64,000 nucleotides of DNA, from the NCBI GenBank assembly GCA_035285325.1, contig JAYKJB010000063.1:1-64000 (forward strand), written 5' to 3'. The position numbers and the translations under genes are program-made. Below the pieces are notes generated by a model. The model saw only the letters and a list, made by a program, of their open reading frames with translations, was not told the origin of the DNA and made no database searches. Of the stretch, positions 36,324 through 46,403 are shown in pieces. Position 1 is the first letter of the stretch; every line of letters begins with the position of its first letter. This DNA comes from Candidatus Sericytochromatia bacterium. Its GTDB lineage: Bacteria; Cyanobacteriota; Sericytochromatia; S15B-MN24; JAQBPE01.

Positions 36324-37153
36324 CGCTTGTCTCCAATCTGCAGCAAGCGAACGGTGTACCAGTTCACGCCGAAGCCCTTCTGAGGGTCGAGGGCGGTCAG
36401 CTTTCCGCCAAAGGCGCGCTGAGCGTCCAGCGGCCCGGCCGTGGCCATCGCGCCCAGGGCGGCCTGGCGCCCGTATCCGAGCAACCCCGAACCCAGGGCC
36501 GACACCCGAGGTTCCACGGCCACGTGGCTCTTGCCGGACGCGCCCTCGCCGATGCTCTCTTCCTGAAAGGCGGTGCCGCCGATGATGCCGCTCTGGCTGA
36601 ACTCTGCCAGGGCATCTGGCCGCCGGATCAGGGCCAGGTTGCTGCGGTCGATCACGCCCAGCACGCCGAGATTGGCCTGGTAACCAAGCTCGGCCGCCTG
36701 CTTGACCGCCGCGGGGCCCACCTCGGCCTGCGCCACCCAGGCATTATAGGCTTTGATGCCTTCGTGCAGCGCCTCCACGTTTTCGCGGTGGTGGACGGCT
36801 CGCCCCAAGGCATCTTGAAAGGCTTGGCGATTTTTTTCCCGGGGATCGACCAGGCCTTGCAGGGCCAGGCCGGTGGCCCGCACCAGGTGTGCCCGGGTCA
36901 GGGCAATCTGACCACTGGCCGCTCGATAGGCCAGTGAGCGGGTGTTGTGAACGCCCGCTTTCAGTCCGGTGGCGGCCAGCGCCGAGGCGTCCGCGGCGTT
37001 CTGAGCCTGAATCTTGCCCAGAACGAGCAGGCCGATGTCCAGAGCACCGTAAAACAGCGCCATGGTGATCACCACGGCACCGGCGCCCCACAGCAAGGCC
37101 TGGCCGTCTTCGTCGTCACGCAAACGCCGGAGCGGCACGTAGGGCCCTCTCAT
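36320..37153 (-). CDS. TadG-like pilus assembly protein
   Basis: The 277-aa product starts like a TadE/TadG protein: EDGQALLWGAGAVVITMALFYG gives a Gly-Gln-Ala-Leu site and a membrane helix, but the Glu at +5 is replaced, so it is probably not cleaved. AQNAADASALAATG after the helix is the typical Tad/TadG N-terminal motif. ATG 37153 overlaps the stop of the preceding gene (ATGA). The large C-terminal region is periplasmic with no recognised domain and no von Willebrand domain. Confidence 0.8.
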   Translation of the reverse strand: MRGPYVPLRRLRDDEDGQALLWGAGAVVITMALFYGALDIGLLVLGKIQAQNAADASALAATGLKAGVHNTRSLAYRAASGQIALTRAHLVRATGLALQGLVDPREKNRQAFQDALGRAVHHRENVEALHEGIKAYNAWVAQAEVGPAAVKQAAELGYQANLGVLGVIDRSNLALIRRPDALAEFSQSGIIGGTAFQEESIGEGASGKSHVAVEPRVSALGSGLLGYGRQAALGAMATAGPLDAQRAFGGKLTALDPQKGFGVNWYTVRLLQIGDKR

Positions 37154-38280
37154 CGGCCAAACAGGACGCGTTCGCGCGCGTCCCGCGTTTTGGCTTCGGT
37201 GTCGAGCCCCTTGGTCAATCCTTGTGTCCACGGCCTGACCTTGCGCTCGAACCCCTTCACGTAGGGGCCGTAGACGGGATGCGTCTGGGCCACCTGGACA
37301 AAGCGGGCCACGTTTTCACAGGTGCGCGCCAGGCCCGTGCCCTCGTTGGCGACGTTGGCTTCGTGGGCCTTCAGCCCCTCCGCCACGACCTTGGTGGTCC
37401 AGGGGGCCTGGCGATCGCCCCGGGCCTCGAAATGTGGGCTCAGATAGAAGAGTGACGAGTAGCTGCCGCTGTTCGCCTTGCCATGGTCCTTCGGGTTTCC
37501 AGGCACCGCCCCGCGCGTCTGATAGGCCTCCCCCTGCACGCGCAGCGCTTCGATGGCGCGAATGTCGGGCAATTGAATGGGGGGGACGCTTCCTCCGGCT
37601 TGCCCTCCGCCGGCCGGCGGTTTGGTCCCCGTCGGCAGTTTGGCGCCCGGTGTCCCTGGCGGTTTGCCTGCGCCGGGTGCCGCGGGTGCCGGCTCTACCT
37701 TCACGACCGGCAGGGCTTCCCGAACCGCCTTCTTGACGGCCTCGACGGCCTTGCCGGCATTTACCACGGCGGCGGGCGCCAGCGCCTTTTCGGTGGCCTC
37801 GACCCGATAACTGACCAGGAAGCGCGATTTGGGGCCCGTTTTGGCATTTTCGTGACGCCCGGGCTCGTATTCCAGCGGCAGACTCGCGGCGGCGGACAGG
37901 ACGTCGAACCCCTGCACCTGTCCCCCCGTCATGGCACTGATGACCCCTGTAAACCGGTCCGTGCGCGCCTGCAACTGAATGCCTGCGGCCTGGCGAGAGC
38001 CCTTCATGCCCTGCACAGCCTGCGCCAGCCAGGGGGGGGAGGCAGCCACGTAGGAAGCCAGGGCCGTGCGGGTCTTGCCGAGGTCGCCGCCGACCACGCT
38101 GGCCGAGCGGGAGGCCAGGAATGCAGCGGCGTTCAAGCTGCTTTGCTGTTGCAGCCAGAGGGCTACCTCGATCGTGCCGAAGGTCAGCAGCGCCAGCATG
38201 GGCAGAACCAGCGCAAATTCAGCCAGGGCTTGGCCGTTCTCGCCGGCCTTCAAACGGCCGAGACCTTTGGCATCAACCAC
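37150..38280 (-). CDS. TadE/TadF-like minor pilin with a Pro/Gly-rich insert
   Basis: The 376-aa protein has a clear class III prepilin site (ENGQALAEFALVLPML; Gly, then Glu at +5 and Phe at +6) and a helix at about 18-42. Between residues 200 and 240 lies a Pro/Gly/Lys-rich low-complexity linker (PGTPGAKLPTGTKPP). A second globular part follows. It is larger than typical TadE (about 150-200 aa). It starts at GTG and lies 3 bp after the prepilin peptidase gene. It probably acts as a minor pilin or tip component. Confidence 0.8.
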   Translation of the reverse strand: MVDAKGLGRLKAGENGQALAEFALVLPMLALLTFGTIEVALWLQQQSSLNAAAFLASRSASVVGGDLGKTRTALASYVAASPPWLAQAVQGMKGSRQAAGIQLQARTDRFTGVISAMTGGQVQGFDVLSAAASLPLEYEPGRHENAKTGPKSRFLVSYRVEATEKALAPAAVVNAGKAVEAVKKAVREALPVVKVEPAPAAPGAGKPPGTPGAKLPTGTKPPAGGGQAGGSVPPIQLPDIRAIEALRVQGEAYQTRGAVPGNPKDHGKANSGSYSSLFYLSPHFEARGDRQAPWTTKVVAEGLKAHEANVANEGTGLARTCENVARFVQVAQTHPVYGPYVKGFERKVRPWTQGLTKGLDTEAKTRDARERVLFGR

Positions 38281-38283
38281 GCT

Positions 38284-38826
38284 TCAGCCCCTCATCCACG
38301 TCAGCAAGTCCTGCGGTTCGGGAAAGAACAGCGCCAGGGCTGAGCCGAGGGCAATCGAGACCCCGTAAGGGAAGGCAGGCGCCGCACTCTGGGTGAGCGC
38401 CGCCTGGGCCTTGCCGCCGGGCAAAATCAGCCCGACGAAGTACCAGTACACGTTGCTGAATAGCCGTTTCAGGGTGCCGTGGCGAATCGCCACAGCCACC
38501 GCAATCAAGCCTCCCGCGCCCGTCACGTAGAGCACGGCGGCGAGGGCGGCGGGCCAGCCGAGCCAGGCACCAACGGCCGCCATCAACTTCACGTCGCCGG
38601 CCCCCATCTGGCCGAGCATGAAGCCCACCAAAAATACCGCACTCCCGCCAAGCAACCCCAACACACTCGACTGAAGCCCCGCGGAGCCCGACATCCAGAC
38701 GTGCAGCAGCAAACCCACCGCGATCGCCGGGAAGGTCAGCCAGTTGAAAATCTTGCGGGACTGCAGGTCCGTGATCATGGCGACGCTGAGGACGCCGACC
38801 AATCCAAATTGCCAGGCGGGTACCAT
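38284..38826 (-). CDS. cpaA: Tad prepilin peptidase CpaA/TadV
   Basis: The 180-aa aspartyl prepilin peptidase has about six membrane helices. The two catalytic aspartates are visible in AMITDLQSRKI and in the GxGD motif QMGAGDVKLMAAVG. It cleaves the leaders of the Flp, TadE and related prepilins. It lacks the N-methyltransferase domain of PilD, as Tad peptidases do. ATG 38826 was chosen for the predicted first membrane segment; no strong ribosome-binding site is seen. It is the first gene after the pilin terminator. Confidence 0.88.
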   Translation of the reverse strand: MVPAWQFGLVGVLSVAMITDLQSRKIFNWLTFPAIAVGLLLHVWMSGSAGLQSSVLGLLGGSAVFLVGFMLGQMGAGDVKLMAAVGAWLGWPAALAAVLYVTGAGGLIAVAVAIRHGTLKRLFSNVYWYFVGLILPGGKAQAALTQSAAPAFPYGVSIALGSALALFFPEPQDLLTWMRG

Positions 38827-38901
38827 CGGCTCTGTCCATGTTCGGGGGGGCGCCGGGGCCGTGCTGCCTTCATGTTCCCGGTCGAGAGGGGCGACAAACG
38901 C

Positions 38902-38926
38902 AAAAGGGCCAGCCTCTGGCTGGCCC
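38902..38926 (-). terminator. Intrinsic terminator after the flp pilin genes
   Basis: On the minus strand, GGGCCAGCC, a 3-nt loop and GGCTGGCCC form a perfect 9-bp stem followed by TTTT. It lies 14 nt after the second flp gene and ahead of cpaA. Partial read-through would give high pilin and low machinery expression. Confidence 0.8.
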
Positions 38927-38939
38927 CGCGAGTCGACGT

Positions 38940-39122
38940 TCAGTTGGTTTTGACGGCAGTGGCTCCCTTGCGCAAAGCGGAGCCAACCTCCATGAAGATA
39001 TTGACCAGATTGGCTTTGACCGTTCCCAGTACCCCGATCAGCGCCACGGAGACGAGGCCGAGGATCAGACCGTACTCGACGAGGCTCTGCCCGTCCTCGT
39101 CCAACCACAATCGGCGCCACAT
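38940..39122 (-). CDS. flp: Flp-type pilin 2
   Basis: The 60-aa prepilin has a short leader with DEDG, then QSLVEYGLILGLVSVALIG; cleavage after Gly leaves Glu at +5 and Tyr at +6, the Flp hallmark. A short polar tail follows the hydrophobic helix. ATG 39122 has GGAGG 9 nt upstream; a GTG one codon earlier is also possible. It is nearly identical to the pilin encoded just upstream in its first 30 mature residues, so it arose by tandem duplication. It is a structural pilus subunit. Confidence 0.92.
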   Translation of the reverse strand: MWRRLWLDEDGQSLVEYGLILGLVSVALIGVLGTVKANLVNIFMEVGSALRKGATAVKTN

Positions 39123-39143
39123 CACAGGGTACCTCCGCGAAGG

Positions 39144-39335
39144 CTACTTGCCGCCCTTGACCGACGTGGCCGCCGTCTTCAAGGACTTCGCCACGGCATC
39201 GAAGATCTTGCCGAGTTCGGTCTTCATGGTGCCGAGCACGGTAATCAGTGCCACGGACACCAGGCCCAGAATCAGCCCGTATTCGACCAGCGATTGGCCT
39301 TCTTCTTCCTTGACCAGTTGCATCAGCATATTCAT
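39144..39335 (-). CDS. flp: Flp-type pilin 1
   Basis: The 63-aa prepilin has EEEG followed by QSLVEYGLILGLVSVALIT, with cleavage after Gly and Glu/Tyr at +5/+6. The C-terminal tail is Lys-rich. GAGGAG lies 9-12 nt before the ATG. It is first of two tandem pilins, and the terminator at 38902 follows the second. The 165-bp gap upstream probably holds the main pilin promoter, though I found no clear -35/-10 pair there. Confidence 0.93.
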   Translation of the reverse strand: MNMLMQLVKEEEGQSLVEYGLILGLVSVALITVLGTMKTELGKIFDAVAKSLKTAATSVKGGK

Positions 39336-39500
39336 CGGAACGATCTCCTCGCTTGACTGACTTGAAACGCTGCAGTGGTGTCGAGCCCCTGCTGAAATGG
39401 TTGTCGCCGTCGGGCCGGCGCGGCTTGCGTTGCACTGGTCAAGCTCGGGTGAAGTTTGGTTTAAGGATGCGCTAAGGTGCTGTCGCCGGAGGCGCCCCGC

Positions 39501-39680
39501 TCACGGCGCGCGCCACTGCTTGAGGCTTTCGTGCTGGCTCTGGAAGGCGGCGGCTTGCAGGCCCTTCAGCGTGGCGGCGGCCCCGAACAGGCACAGGACG
39601 AATACCGCGGTGATCAAGCCGTACTCCACCGCAGTGGAGCCGCTCTCGCGCGTCAGCAAGCGTTGCACGGCCCCGATCAC
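39501..39680 (-). CDS. Third Flp-like prepilin
   Basis: The 59-aa product starts at GTG, which overlaps the stop of the lipoprotein gene (GTGA). It has a basic leader ending RESG, then STAVEYGLITAVFVLCLFG: the cleavage Gly with Glu at +5 and Tyr at +6 is intact, followed by a hydrophobic helix. The tail is Gln/Ser-rich and differs from pilins 1 and 2. It carries one Cys in the helix. Sequence divergence and separate position suggest a minor or specialised pilin rather than the main subunit. Confidence 0.8.
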   Translation of the reverse strand: MIGAVQRLLTRESGSTAVEYGLITAVFVLCLFGAAATLKGLQAAAFQSQHESLKQWRAP

Positions 39681-41130: not shown

Positions 41131-41433
41131 TCAGGCCACCCTTTGCAGGATCTGCTTGTCCAGGAATTCCTGCAGCAGCGCCAGCACGTCGGTCTCTGCC
41201 TCTTCCTGCGCCACCTCGTATTCCTCAGCCAGGCGCGCGGCCACCTCTCGCGCGCTGCCGCATTCTGAAAGCAACTCCCATACCCGGGTGCCCACCTGGT
41301 TCAGGGTGTGCAGCACGCTGTCATGCGGCGTCAGGATGAGGGTTTCGCCGTTGACCACGCGGGCGGCAATGCGAGGGTTCAGAGGGGGAAGGACCGCCTC
41401 GGCGGTCAAACTTGCTGGGTGATCGTGTCCCAA
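41131..41433 (-). CDS. PqqD-type RiPP recognition protein
   Basis: The 100-aa protein is of the PqqD family (RiPP recognition element). It shows strand VNGETLILTPHDSVLHTLNQ, the conserved turn VGTRVWELL and the helices REVAARLAEEY and DVLALLQEFLDKQIL. PqqD-like domains bind the leader of a precursor peptide and present it to a modifying enzyme. TTG start with GAGG 8 nt upstream, inside the kinase-like gene that it overlaps by 28 nt. No PQQ genes are present. It is the last gene of the three-gene cassette. Confidence 0.85.
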   Translation of the reverse strand: MGHDHPASLTAEAVLPPLNPRIAARVVNGETLILTPHDSVLHTLNQVGTRVWELLSECGSAREVAARLAEEYEVAQEEAETDVLALLQEFLDKQILQRVA

Positions 41434-42242
41434 ACCGATTCCTCAAGCGCAAAATGCAGTTCGCGCACCGGGACCTGCTCCACGAGGCGCTGAGCGATCT
41501 CCAAAGACCGCGCGAGACCCTTCGGAGATTGGTCGTAATATACGGTGGATTCGAGAATTTCGCGAATCGCCGCGGGCGGCGTCAGCGGGGAAACGCGATG
41601 CTGCGTGGCCTTGCGTAAACGGTACAAGGCGGCCAGTGGACGCGTGCCCGGCAGGCTGGAGCCCCACGCACCGAAAAAGGGGGTGCTGTGGAGTTCTGGT
41701 TCAGGACCATCCAGTCTCACCGCCACCAGTTCATCGCACAACACGTCATATCGGGCCGAAGACAAGCCACAGAGCGTGGTCTTGCCGCTGCCGGACGGAC
41801 CAAAAAAGACGCTCCCGCAGGCGTTGGGCCCGGCAATGCCTGCGGCGTGCATCATCACGCCGCCCTGCTGCGTCAGCAACTGGCTGATTTGCAGGCGCAA
41901 CAAGCCGTCGATCGCCATCGGGAAAATGGCATCGGGGCTGGCTGATTGGCTGGAGGGGTCCAAGACGCGCAGCTTGGCGGAGCCGTCGCTGGAGAGGGTT
42001 CCGTGATACTGGTCATGGCACAGGTGGGTTCCGGCGTCATCTTGAAAGATCAGCGGTTCACCGACTTCGGGGAGTTCCCCGGTCAAGGTCAACGCCACCG
42101 TCAAGCGGGCATCAGCCGGCCGATCGCAAAGAAAAGCACCGAGTCTCGGCAGGAGGGGGGGCCACCAGGCCGGGTCCGGCAGATCCAGTTCGATCGCGAA
42201 CCCGGCGATGGCAAGCTTGAGGTGGCCCTGGGCTGAGTTCAA
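41406..42242 (-). CDS. HPr-kinase-like protein of a peptide-modification cassette
   Basis: The 278-aa protein has the P-loop kinase fold of HPr kinase C-terminal domains: a conserved His before the P-loop (MMHAAGI), Walker A SVFFGPSGSGKTTLCGL (about 145-160), and the acidic site in YDVLCDELVAVRL. The N-terminal 120 residues are family-specific. It lacks the full HPrK/P signature motif, so it is not a PTS regulator; such homologues occur next to PqqD in RiPP loci, and one in lasso-peptide clusters phosphorylates the precursor. I chose TTG 42242 because it overlaps the stop of the precursor-like gene (TTGA). A GTG at 42299 would read through that gene. Confidence 0.78.
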   Translation of the reverse strand: MNSAQGHLKLAIAGFAIELDLPDPAWWPPLLPRLGAFLCDRPADARLTVALTLTGELPEVGEPLIFQDDAGTHLCHDQYHGTLSSDGSAKLRVLDPSSQSASPDAIFPMAIDGLLRLQISQLLTQQGGVMMHAAGIAGPNACGSVFFGPSGSGKTTLCGLSSARYDVLCDELVAVRLDGPEPELHSTPFFGAWGSSLPGTRPLAALYRLRKATQHRVSPLTPPAAIREILESTVYYDQSPKGLARSLEIAQRLVEQVPVRELHFALEESVWDTITQQV

Positions 42243-42388
42243 CTGCGCGCTCGGGCCACGTTGAAGGCACAGGCCGGCGAGCCGGGGACCTTCAAGCACG
42301 CCAACGAGACCTCGAAGACCCGATGGGATTCGAGGCGCGGTTTCTCGTAGGGCTTCTTGGGTTCGGGCGACTCGGAGGGAGGGCGCAA
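42239..42388 (-). CDS. Precursor-like peptide with YxxP leader motif
   Basis: The 49-aa peptide starts at TTG with GAGG 5 nt before it. A Pro/Ser/Glu-rich N terminus leads to KKPYEKPRLESH, which holds a YxxP motif (Y14-P17) like the one that RiPP recognition elements bind in lasso-peptide leaders. FEVSLAC follows, then a 17-residue end with two cysteines (C31, C40), one Gly-Ser-Pro turn, and a C-terminal serine. Its TGA overlaps the start of the kinase-like gene. Coding is supported by position, the ribosome-binding site, coupling and motif, not by homology I can test. Confidence 0.6.
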   Translation of the reverse strand: MRPPSESPEPKKPYEKPRLESHRVFEVSLACLKVPGSPACAFNVARARS

Positions 42389-42415
42389 GGGAGCCTCAAA
42401 TAGCGGGCTGAAACG

Positions 42416-44831: not shown

Positions 44832-46403
44832 ATGACCGTGACTCGCCAGTTTCAAGCCGTTTCTGCCCTCGCGGTGGCTTTGATCGTCAGCGGCTGTGGT
44901 TACTCGCCGCTGTATCAGCCGTTGCCGATGCAGCCCTATACCAGTGACTATGTGGGTGGCAACCGACTGATCCGTCAGGAGGTGATCCCCACGCTGCCCG
45001 CCGGTGTCGAGGCGACTGCGCTGGAGTTGGAACCTGGGCAGGCCAGCGCCCGGGTGGGTCAATCGATGCAACTCACGGCCGTGATCAGGGGCTCCGACAA
45101 CAAGCTGTATCGCGATCCGCGCCTGGTGACGTGGGCGGTCGGCAACAGTGAGATGGCTCAAATCGATCGTCAGGGCGTGTTGATGCCGACAGCGCCGGGC
45201 ACGGTCAAGGCGGTGGCTCAGGTGGGCAAGTTGACGGCTGAAGCCACCATTCAGGTCGAGCCTGCCCGTTACGCCTGGCAGCAAGTGCTCTCTCCGACCG
45301 GGGTGAACCTGCGCGCCGTGAAGATGGTGAGCCGCTTCGAGGCGTGGGCCGGCGGAGAAAACGGCACGCTGTTGCGCTTCGTCAACGGCGCCTGGCGCGC
45401 TGAACCGTCGTTTCGTCAGCCCGATGCCTCGATCACGGGTCTGGGCTTCGCCAACAGCACGTTGGGGTGGGCGGTCGGCTCGCGTGCGGGCGGAAGCATC
45501 CCCTTCGCAGCCCGTTGGGATGGAAACGCCTGGCGCCAGGTCAATCTGCCGGTCAGTGCCGGGACCTTGCAGGCCATCAGCGTGATCAACGAGCGGGATG
45601 CCTGGGCGGTCGGCCAGGAAGCCGGCGGGAACGGTCTATTGTTGCACTGGGACGGCGCGTCCTGGCGGCAAGCGGAATCTCCCGCTCGCGGGAAGATCAA
45701 TGACATTCACATGGTCTCAGCCCGGAGTGGTTGGGCCGTCGGAAAGTATTCGGGCCTGGCCACCACCCCGATGATCCTGAAGTACCAGGACGGTGCCTGG
45801 GTGAAGAAGAGCATCTGGGACAACCGTGGCGCCATCTCGGTGACGGACTCTCAGGAACTCACGGCGATCAAGATGATCAGCGAGACCCAAGGGTACGCCG
45901 TCGGTATTCGCGACAACCTGGTCATCCGCCCGCGGGGCATCTTCTTGCAATACGACCCGAAACGGGATGGCTGGGTGTCCGGACAGTTCGATAGCTCGGT
46001 CGAGGGCCTGGATCAGGTTCCCCTGCACGACATCGAAATGATCTCCGGCACGGAAGGCTGGGCGCTTGGCCAGGTGCGTCAACGTGACTTCACGCTGGAA
46101 CGGAACCCGCGCTCCATCTTCGGCAACTTGCTGGCCAACCAGAATGGGGTGCTCAAGCCTGATACCAGCTACTTCTCCGGCAATGTGAGCGGCGCTTTCT
46201 ACGCGATTGATTTGCTGCCTCAGGGCGAAGGCTTCGTGGTCGGGCAAAACGGGGTCATCATGCAGCGCACCTTCGATTGGCGGGGGCTGAACAATGGCAC
46301 GGGCAGTTCTGCCTTCGGCGGTGGTCAAAGCTCCAGCCTGCCGCTGACCTATGGGCCCGGTGGCGTGGCCGTGCCAGGGGGCACCCCCGTCAACAATTTC
46401 TGA
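44832..46403 (+). CDS. Ycf48-like beta-propeller lipoprotein
   Basis: The 523-aa lipoprotein has a signal peptide with lipobox LIVSGC (Cys about 22). A BIG_2-like Ig domain (about 65-145; ARVGQSMQLTAVIRG) is followed by a beta propeller (about 150-480) built from repeats of the form GWAVG...ILxxxDGxWxx (for example DAWAVGQ, SGWAVGK, LLHWDGASWRQ). This is like the Ycf48/HCF136 family, which helps photosystem II assembly in Cyanobacteria, but relatives occur widely in non-phototrophs. The C terminus is Gly/Ser/Pro-rich. ATG has AAGGAAA 9 nt upstream. Its role is unknown; it is outer- or inner-membrane anchored. Confidence 0.8.
   Translation: MTVTRQFQAVSALAVALIVSGCGYSPLYQPLPMQPYTSDYVGGNRLIRQEVIPTLPAGVEATALELEPGQASARVGQSMQLTAVIRGSDNKLYRDPRLVTWAVGNSEMAQIDRQGVLMPTAPGTVKAVAQVGKLTAEATIQVEPARYAWQQVLSPTGVNLRAVKMVSRFEAWAGGENGTLLRFVNGAWRAEPSFRQPDASITGLGFANSTLGWAVGSRAGGSIPFAARWDGNAWRQVNLPVSAGTLQAISVINERDAWAVGQEAGGNGLLLHWDGASWRQAESPARGKINDIHMVSARSGWAVGKYSGLATTPMILKYQDGAWVKKSIWDNRGAISVTDSQELTAIKMISETQGYAVGIRDNLVIRPRGIFLQYDPKRDGWVSGQFDSSVEGLDQVPLHDIEMISGTEGWALGQVRQRDFTLERNPRSIFGNLLANQNGVLKPDTSYFSGNVSGAFYAIDLLPQGEGFVVGQNGVIMQRTFDWRGLNNGTGSSAFGGGQSSSLPLTYGPGGVAVPGGTPVNNF

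Follow-up and report, generated by a model that had tools for sequence, protein, structure and literature searches.

A candidate non-lasso RiPP pathway with genes at three loci in a Sericytochromatia lineage

What might a short peptide, an HPr-kinase-like protein and a PqqD-type protein make together when they are encoded side by side? The question is raised by three minus-strand genes at 42388-41131 of the window, the whole 64,000-nucleotide stretch of Sericytochromatia DNA that was analysed (Table 1). A first-pass annotation had described these genes as they are found here and had read them as a possible new, minimal type of cassette for a leader-guided, phosphorylated peptide, adding that partner enzymes could lie elsewhere.

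The triad and its 49-residue precursor

The comparison rests on four genomes: the window's own (G000), the RYN_339 MAG from a different genus of the same family (G001), a member of a different family in the same order (G005) and a member of the same class (G010). All four are fragmented assemblies, and they are not independent, G000 and G001 being close. In these two, precursor, kinase and PqqD stand in the same order, and the flanking genes are kept as well, a FliD_C-like gene upstream and a convergent LexA gene downstream. Neither a sigma-70 promoter match nor an excess of terminators was seen. The gene order in G005 is kinase, PqqD, SPASM radical SAM, precursor and, directly after it, an S26B/SipW-like peptidase domain fused to NTP_transf_5, with glycosyltransferase and polysaccharide-export-like genes adjoining (the latter by inspection). 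The kinase, PqqD, radical SAM and precursor of G010 share a single 4-kb contig beside a flippase-like gene. Also in the window, 44832-46403 encodes a protein of 523 aa in which Big_2 and YCF48/BNR-like domains were recognised; it is kept beside the cassette in G001. Flp/TadE-type pilin genes and a type IV prepilin peptidase lie at 37150-39680, together with three short pilin-like ORFs near one another.

Table 1 Features of the minus-strand triad, in window coordinates
Feature	Position	Strand	Remarks
Shine-Dalgarno-like GAGG	42394..42397	-	5 nt before precursor TTG; predicted from sequence
RiPP-type precursor, 49 aa, MRPPSESPEPKKPYEKPRLESHRVFEVSLACLKVPGSPACAFNVARARS	42239..42388	-	TTG start, stop included; G001 homologue
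Leader recognition stretch Y14-E-K-P-R-L-E-S-H-R-V-F-E26	42311..42349	-	13-residue Y-to-E spacing
Putative core, residues 27-49	42242..42310	-	C31, K33, G36, S49 invariant in 4 genomes
Cys31 of precursor	42298-42296	-	invariant in 4/4 precursors
Terminal Ser49 of precursor	42244-42242	-	invariant in 4/4 precursors
HPr-kinase-like P-loop kinase, 278 aa	41406..42242	-	probable start TTG 42242; listed ORF from GTG 42299
Walker A motif GPSGSGKTT of kinase	41775..41801	-	motif in homologue alignment
PqqD-type RiPP recognition element, 100 aa	41131..41433	-	PF05402 5.6e-16; TTG start

With its TTG start and small size, the 49-aa ORF could be taken for a chance open frame overlapping the start of the kinase gene. 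This reading was rejected and has next to no probability, since the frame is conserved across genomes: G001 encodes an equally long homologue at the same position from an ATG start (65% identity and 32 invariant residues, with both Cys and the terminal Ser retained), dN/dS between the two is about 0.28, and specific profile matches stand beside kinase and PqqD in four genomes. In the codon comparison third positions are the most changed, and by this measure the precursor is under purifying selection. Aligned, the four precursors share an invariant P-Y-E-x-P, Glu26, Cys31, Lys33, Gly36 and terminal Ser, the Cys falling just past the leader and the Ser coming last in each; every one of these PYExP-leader precursors (n=4) has a PqqD in the same cluster. 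The Y-to-E spacing of the leader is common to G000, G005, G010 and the lasso-like precursors found beside cyanobacterial kinases. The YxxP leader motif and the C-terminal Ser, both singled out in the first-pass annotation, have thus held up across the four genomes. The same annotation had suggested looking for the triad in relatives and held that its reading would fall if the 49-aa frame were lost where the kinase and PqqD persist; both genes were found with the precursor in G001, G005 and G010, and it is kept in four genomes out of four.

Neither NCBIfam nor Pfam assigns the precursor to a family. Within the 64-kb window the leader regular expression matched no other short ORF, and a degenerate DNA pattern, YE[KR]P...FE..LAC, matched once in 84,980 genomes, at the RYN_339 locus. 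A precursor profile gave four strong matches among 386 genomes of the phylum, these four only. Because the profiles used here contain the cassette-genome rows themselves, high scores for those rows are expected, and the informative part is that no further genomes match.

Predicted leader binder and kinase

The PqqD-type assignment made at first pass is borne out, and the protein resembles the B1 proteins of lasso peptide systems. Its closest solved relative in a PDB search is TbiB1 (2.2e-7), which has been solved with its leader, and a medium-confidence model of the protein placed the TbiB1 and TfuB1 leader complexes at the top of a fold search (Foldseek E about 0.1, probability about 1). PadeB1 has nanomolar affinity for its leader (PMC5067487). 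The G000 and G001 proteins are 51-52% identical, and TTG 41433 is the equivalent of the ATG start in G001, which is preceded by AAGGAG. This is the sole PqqD of G000, and G001 and G005 likewise carry one each; a radical SAM in these genomes could therefore turn to no second free-standing leader binder of the PqqD type.

The HPr-kinase-like label fared less evenly. The motifs are present, with H132, GxSGxGKTT and D170 invariant across 12 aligned homologues (8 of them cyanobacterial), and 8 of the 12 match Hpr_kinase_C (best 7.3e-9), whereas the window protein's own family match is weak and its assignment remote; taken alone it gave PEPCK_ATP at 1.6e-4 and HprK_rel_A at 0.002. Judged by the alignment, the kinase is a member of the HPrK-like homologous group. 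It is 46-47% identical to its G001 counterpart, whose best NCBIfam match is ScmC (6.6e-7). An AF2 model built from two sequences reached a pLDDT of 41, and a locus search with the kinase across the genome-contig collection returned no confirmed relative. TTG 42242, which together with the stop codon of the precursor reads TTGA, is more likely than GTG 42299 to be the start codon, because the G001 kinase begins 2 nt past the stop of its precursor.

Cyanobacterial homologues of the kinase adjoin precursors that lack a C-terminal Ser, and the kinase is therefore not always a sign of a terminal Ser. Those at L010 (2391-3230), L007, L008, L011, L012 and L014 adjoin at least one lasso-like, non-Ser-ending precursor, and at L010 three such precursors lie in tandem.

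Candidate partners at other loci and the proposed pathway

The part of the first-pass annotation that did not survive is the minimal type itself, a cassette without radical SAM, protease or macrocyclase. In G005 and G010 a SPASM radical SAM is clustered with the kinase, PqqD and a YExP, Ser-ending precursor, G005 adds the fusion, and homologues of both enzymes are encoded on other contigs of G000, so the partners appear to act in trans, much as that annotation had allowed. The cassette genes are scattered over the genome, and only three could therefore be seen at first pass.

SPASM radical-SAM enzymes are common, and G000 holds 15 radical-SAM matches. The one nearest to the clustered enzymes, C135:24444-25514, is about 31% identical to those of G005 and G010 (E 1e-40 to 1e-52); its G001 counterpart, a 63% match, occupies a syntenic place. 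In a tree of 30 radical-SAM rows, the C135 and G001 proteins form one clade with the clustered enzymes (support 100/97). Across the class, strong matches are confined to the four cassette genomes, the weakest of them at 5e-31 and the next match at 4e-23. When a four-row profile was run against 386 genomes of the phylum, a gap from 1.7e-160 to 1.5e-60 separated these four from the rest. The enzyme is unlinked to the triad in G000 and G001, where its involvement is argued from homology, co-distribution and phylogeny in four non-independent genomes.

Other radical SAMs of G000, by inspection MoaA-, MiaB-, RimO-, LipA-, HemN/HemW-like and others, were considered as partners and rejected; C90, the next most similar, groups elsewhere in the tree. 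One MoaA-like radical-SAM frame (L027, G000:C11:30677-31045) gives way to short repeats (TNDK.I) and to an unrelated C-terminal portion rich in repeats, a possible misassembly or gene fusion.

The S26B-like-NTP_transf_5 fusion that follows the precursor in G005 also occurs in G000 (C59:5554-7221) and G001 (C125), unlinked to the triad; it was not found in G010, where the cassette contig spans 4 kb. Its S26 domain retains G-[STA]-SM-x-P, a His and a GD motif that an Asp follows; it matches an archaeal-type signal peptidase model below the cut-off. Among 386 genomes, only G000, G001 and G005 match across the peptidase half, the others matching essentially the nucleotidyltransferase half alone.

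Taken together, we favour, with a probability of roughly 0.6, a RiPP pathway spread over three loci. The PqqD protein would bind the precursor through its YEKP leader, and the SPASM radical SAM of contig C135 would modify the core, most plausibly at the invariant Cys31 just past the leader. The HPr-kinase-like protein would phosphorylate the hydroxyl of terminal Ser49, and the S26B/SipW-like-NTP_transf_5 fusion of contig C59 may remove the leader and/or decorate the phosphate. What is read directly from sequence comprises the precursor and its conservation, the PqqD family, the kinase group, the radical-SAM homology and clade, the shared fusion and the co-distribution; from these we infer all catalytic steps, their order and the membership of the fusion, the last because it has a single clustered example, in G005. 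Chances are about even that this amounts to a non-lasso RiPP class combining a SPASM radical-SAM change with HPrK-like phosphorylation of a C-terminal Ser, in which the fusion both cleaves the leader and decorates the phosphate and the genes of the window's lineage are spread across three loci.

Competing readings and known systems

Three other readings must be weighed against this pathway. In G000 and G001 the triad alone is clustered and its place is conserved, as would be expected of a minimal phosphopeptide system of precursor, PqqD and kinase, with the distant radical SAM and fusion serving other pathways. Such a system is unlikely: the radical SAM sits inside the cluster in G005 and G010, those of G000 and G001 are the closest homologues of the clustered enzymes with the same distribution, and the single PqqD of G000, G001 and G005 leaves the radical SAM with no other stand-alone leader binder. 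A little less probable again is a redox-cofactor-like pathway, in which a PQQ- or mycofactocin-like small molecule is made and the kinase activates a residue or controls the pathway. It would account for a SPASM radical SAM with a PqqD, and the model that best fits the G010 enzyme is that of the mycofactocin maturase; the score is 147 bits where the cut-off lies at 265, however, and equivalog cut-offs are reached by none of the enzymes. Nor was any PQQ or mycofactocin accessory gene recognised beside the clusters, and the conserved core residues are the Cys and the terminal Ser.

Less probable than either is a lasso peptide, threaded by a B2 protease and an Asn-synthetase-like cyclase encoded elsewhere and tailored by the kinase as in paeninodin. 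The leader is lasso-like, the PqqD has its nearest relatives among lasso B1 proteins, the cyanobacterial relatives of the kinase adjoin lasso-like precursors, and G000 has three Asn_synthase matches outside the cluster. The lasso B2 protease (PF13471), however, is absent from G000, G001 and G005, and the Thr at position -2 is missing from all four precursors, which have Leu or Ala there; on these two grounds the lasso peptide was rejected. The Thr typical of lasso leaders is present in the lasso-like leaders linked to the cyanobacterial kinases. No Asn-synthetase-like cyclase was recognised in the G000, G001, G005 or G010 clusters, and the clustered partner in the relatives is a radical SAM. 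Lasso-type genes were seen elsewhere as separate observations: contig C328 of G010 (L091, L099) has a 461-aa open frame with a lasso B2-like domain (PF13471) and NTP_transf_5, like the B2-nucleotidyltransferase fusions of lasso clusters, and this genome may carry a lasso pathway as well. Another genome, G017, encodes a PqqD and, on a separate contig, a B2-like protein that stands alone (C4:156609-156809 and C6:121460-121702), possibly forming a lasso pathway.

The three-locus RiPP pathway has its nearest counterparts in several described systems. Its kinase and terminal Ser recall the tailoring of paeninodin and pseudomycoidin, where the C-terminal Ser of lasso precursors receives a phosphate from HPrK homologues, and hexoses are added to this phosphate by a nucleotidyltransferase that some clusters encode as a fusion with the B2 leader protease (PMC8498205). 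Alike are the HPrK-like kinase, the PqqD/B1 leader binder, the YxxP-type leader, the C-terminal Ser and a nucleotidyltransferase fused to a protease-like domain. The cassette differs in lacking the B2 protease and the leader Thr at -2, in having a SPASM radical SAM in place of the lasso cyclase, in a protease-like half that is S26B/SipW-like rather than transglutaminase-like, and in the spread of its genes over three loci. Phospeptin, a polyphosphorylated RiPP (PMC9259500), resembles the cassette in the phosphorylation predicted for the latter.

SynChlorMet (SCM; NCBIfam ScmC/ScmD/ScmE/ScmF) shares ScmC, the PqqD-like ScmD and SPASM radical SAMs. It has two radical SAMs where the cassette has one, the cassette adds the S26B-like-nucleotidyltransferase fusion, and all cassette matches fall far below the curated ScmC, ScmD, ScmE and ScmF cut-offs, which by this measure places it outside SynChlorMet. 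To our knowledge the SynChlorMet precursor has not been identified, whereas one is identified here. The HPr-rel-A system likewise pairs an HprK-related kinase (HprK_rel_A) with a PqqD-type protein (PqqD_rel_X), but the cassette scores below both cut-offs, with 17 bits against 200 and 23 against 35. With sactipeptides, which are marked by a thioether from Cys to an alpha-carbon, and with other SPASM radical-SAM RiPPs the cassette shares its SPASM radical SAM and the invariant Cys with which the putative core begins; we know of no kinase or terminal Ser in these classes. In the openly accessible literature searched, no paper described a RiPP that pairs radical-SAM modification with a kinase for its C-terminal Ser; given that scope, the absence is weak evidence.

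A precursor is now on offer for a kinase, PqqD and radical-SAM cassette. Mining that looks at clusters alone will miss such RiPPs, as the same gene set can be found together in one cluster or, in other genomes of the class, divided among three loci. The proposed cassette would bring together radical-SAM peptide maturation and the phospho- or phosphoglyco-tailoring of a C-terminal Ser, two kinds of chemistry that are usually treated apart.
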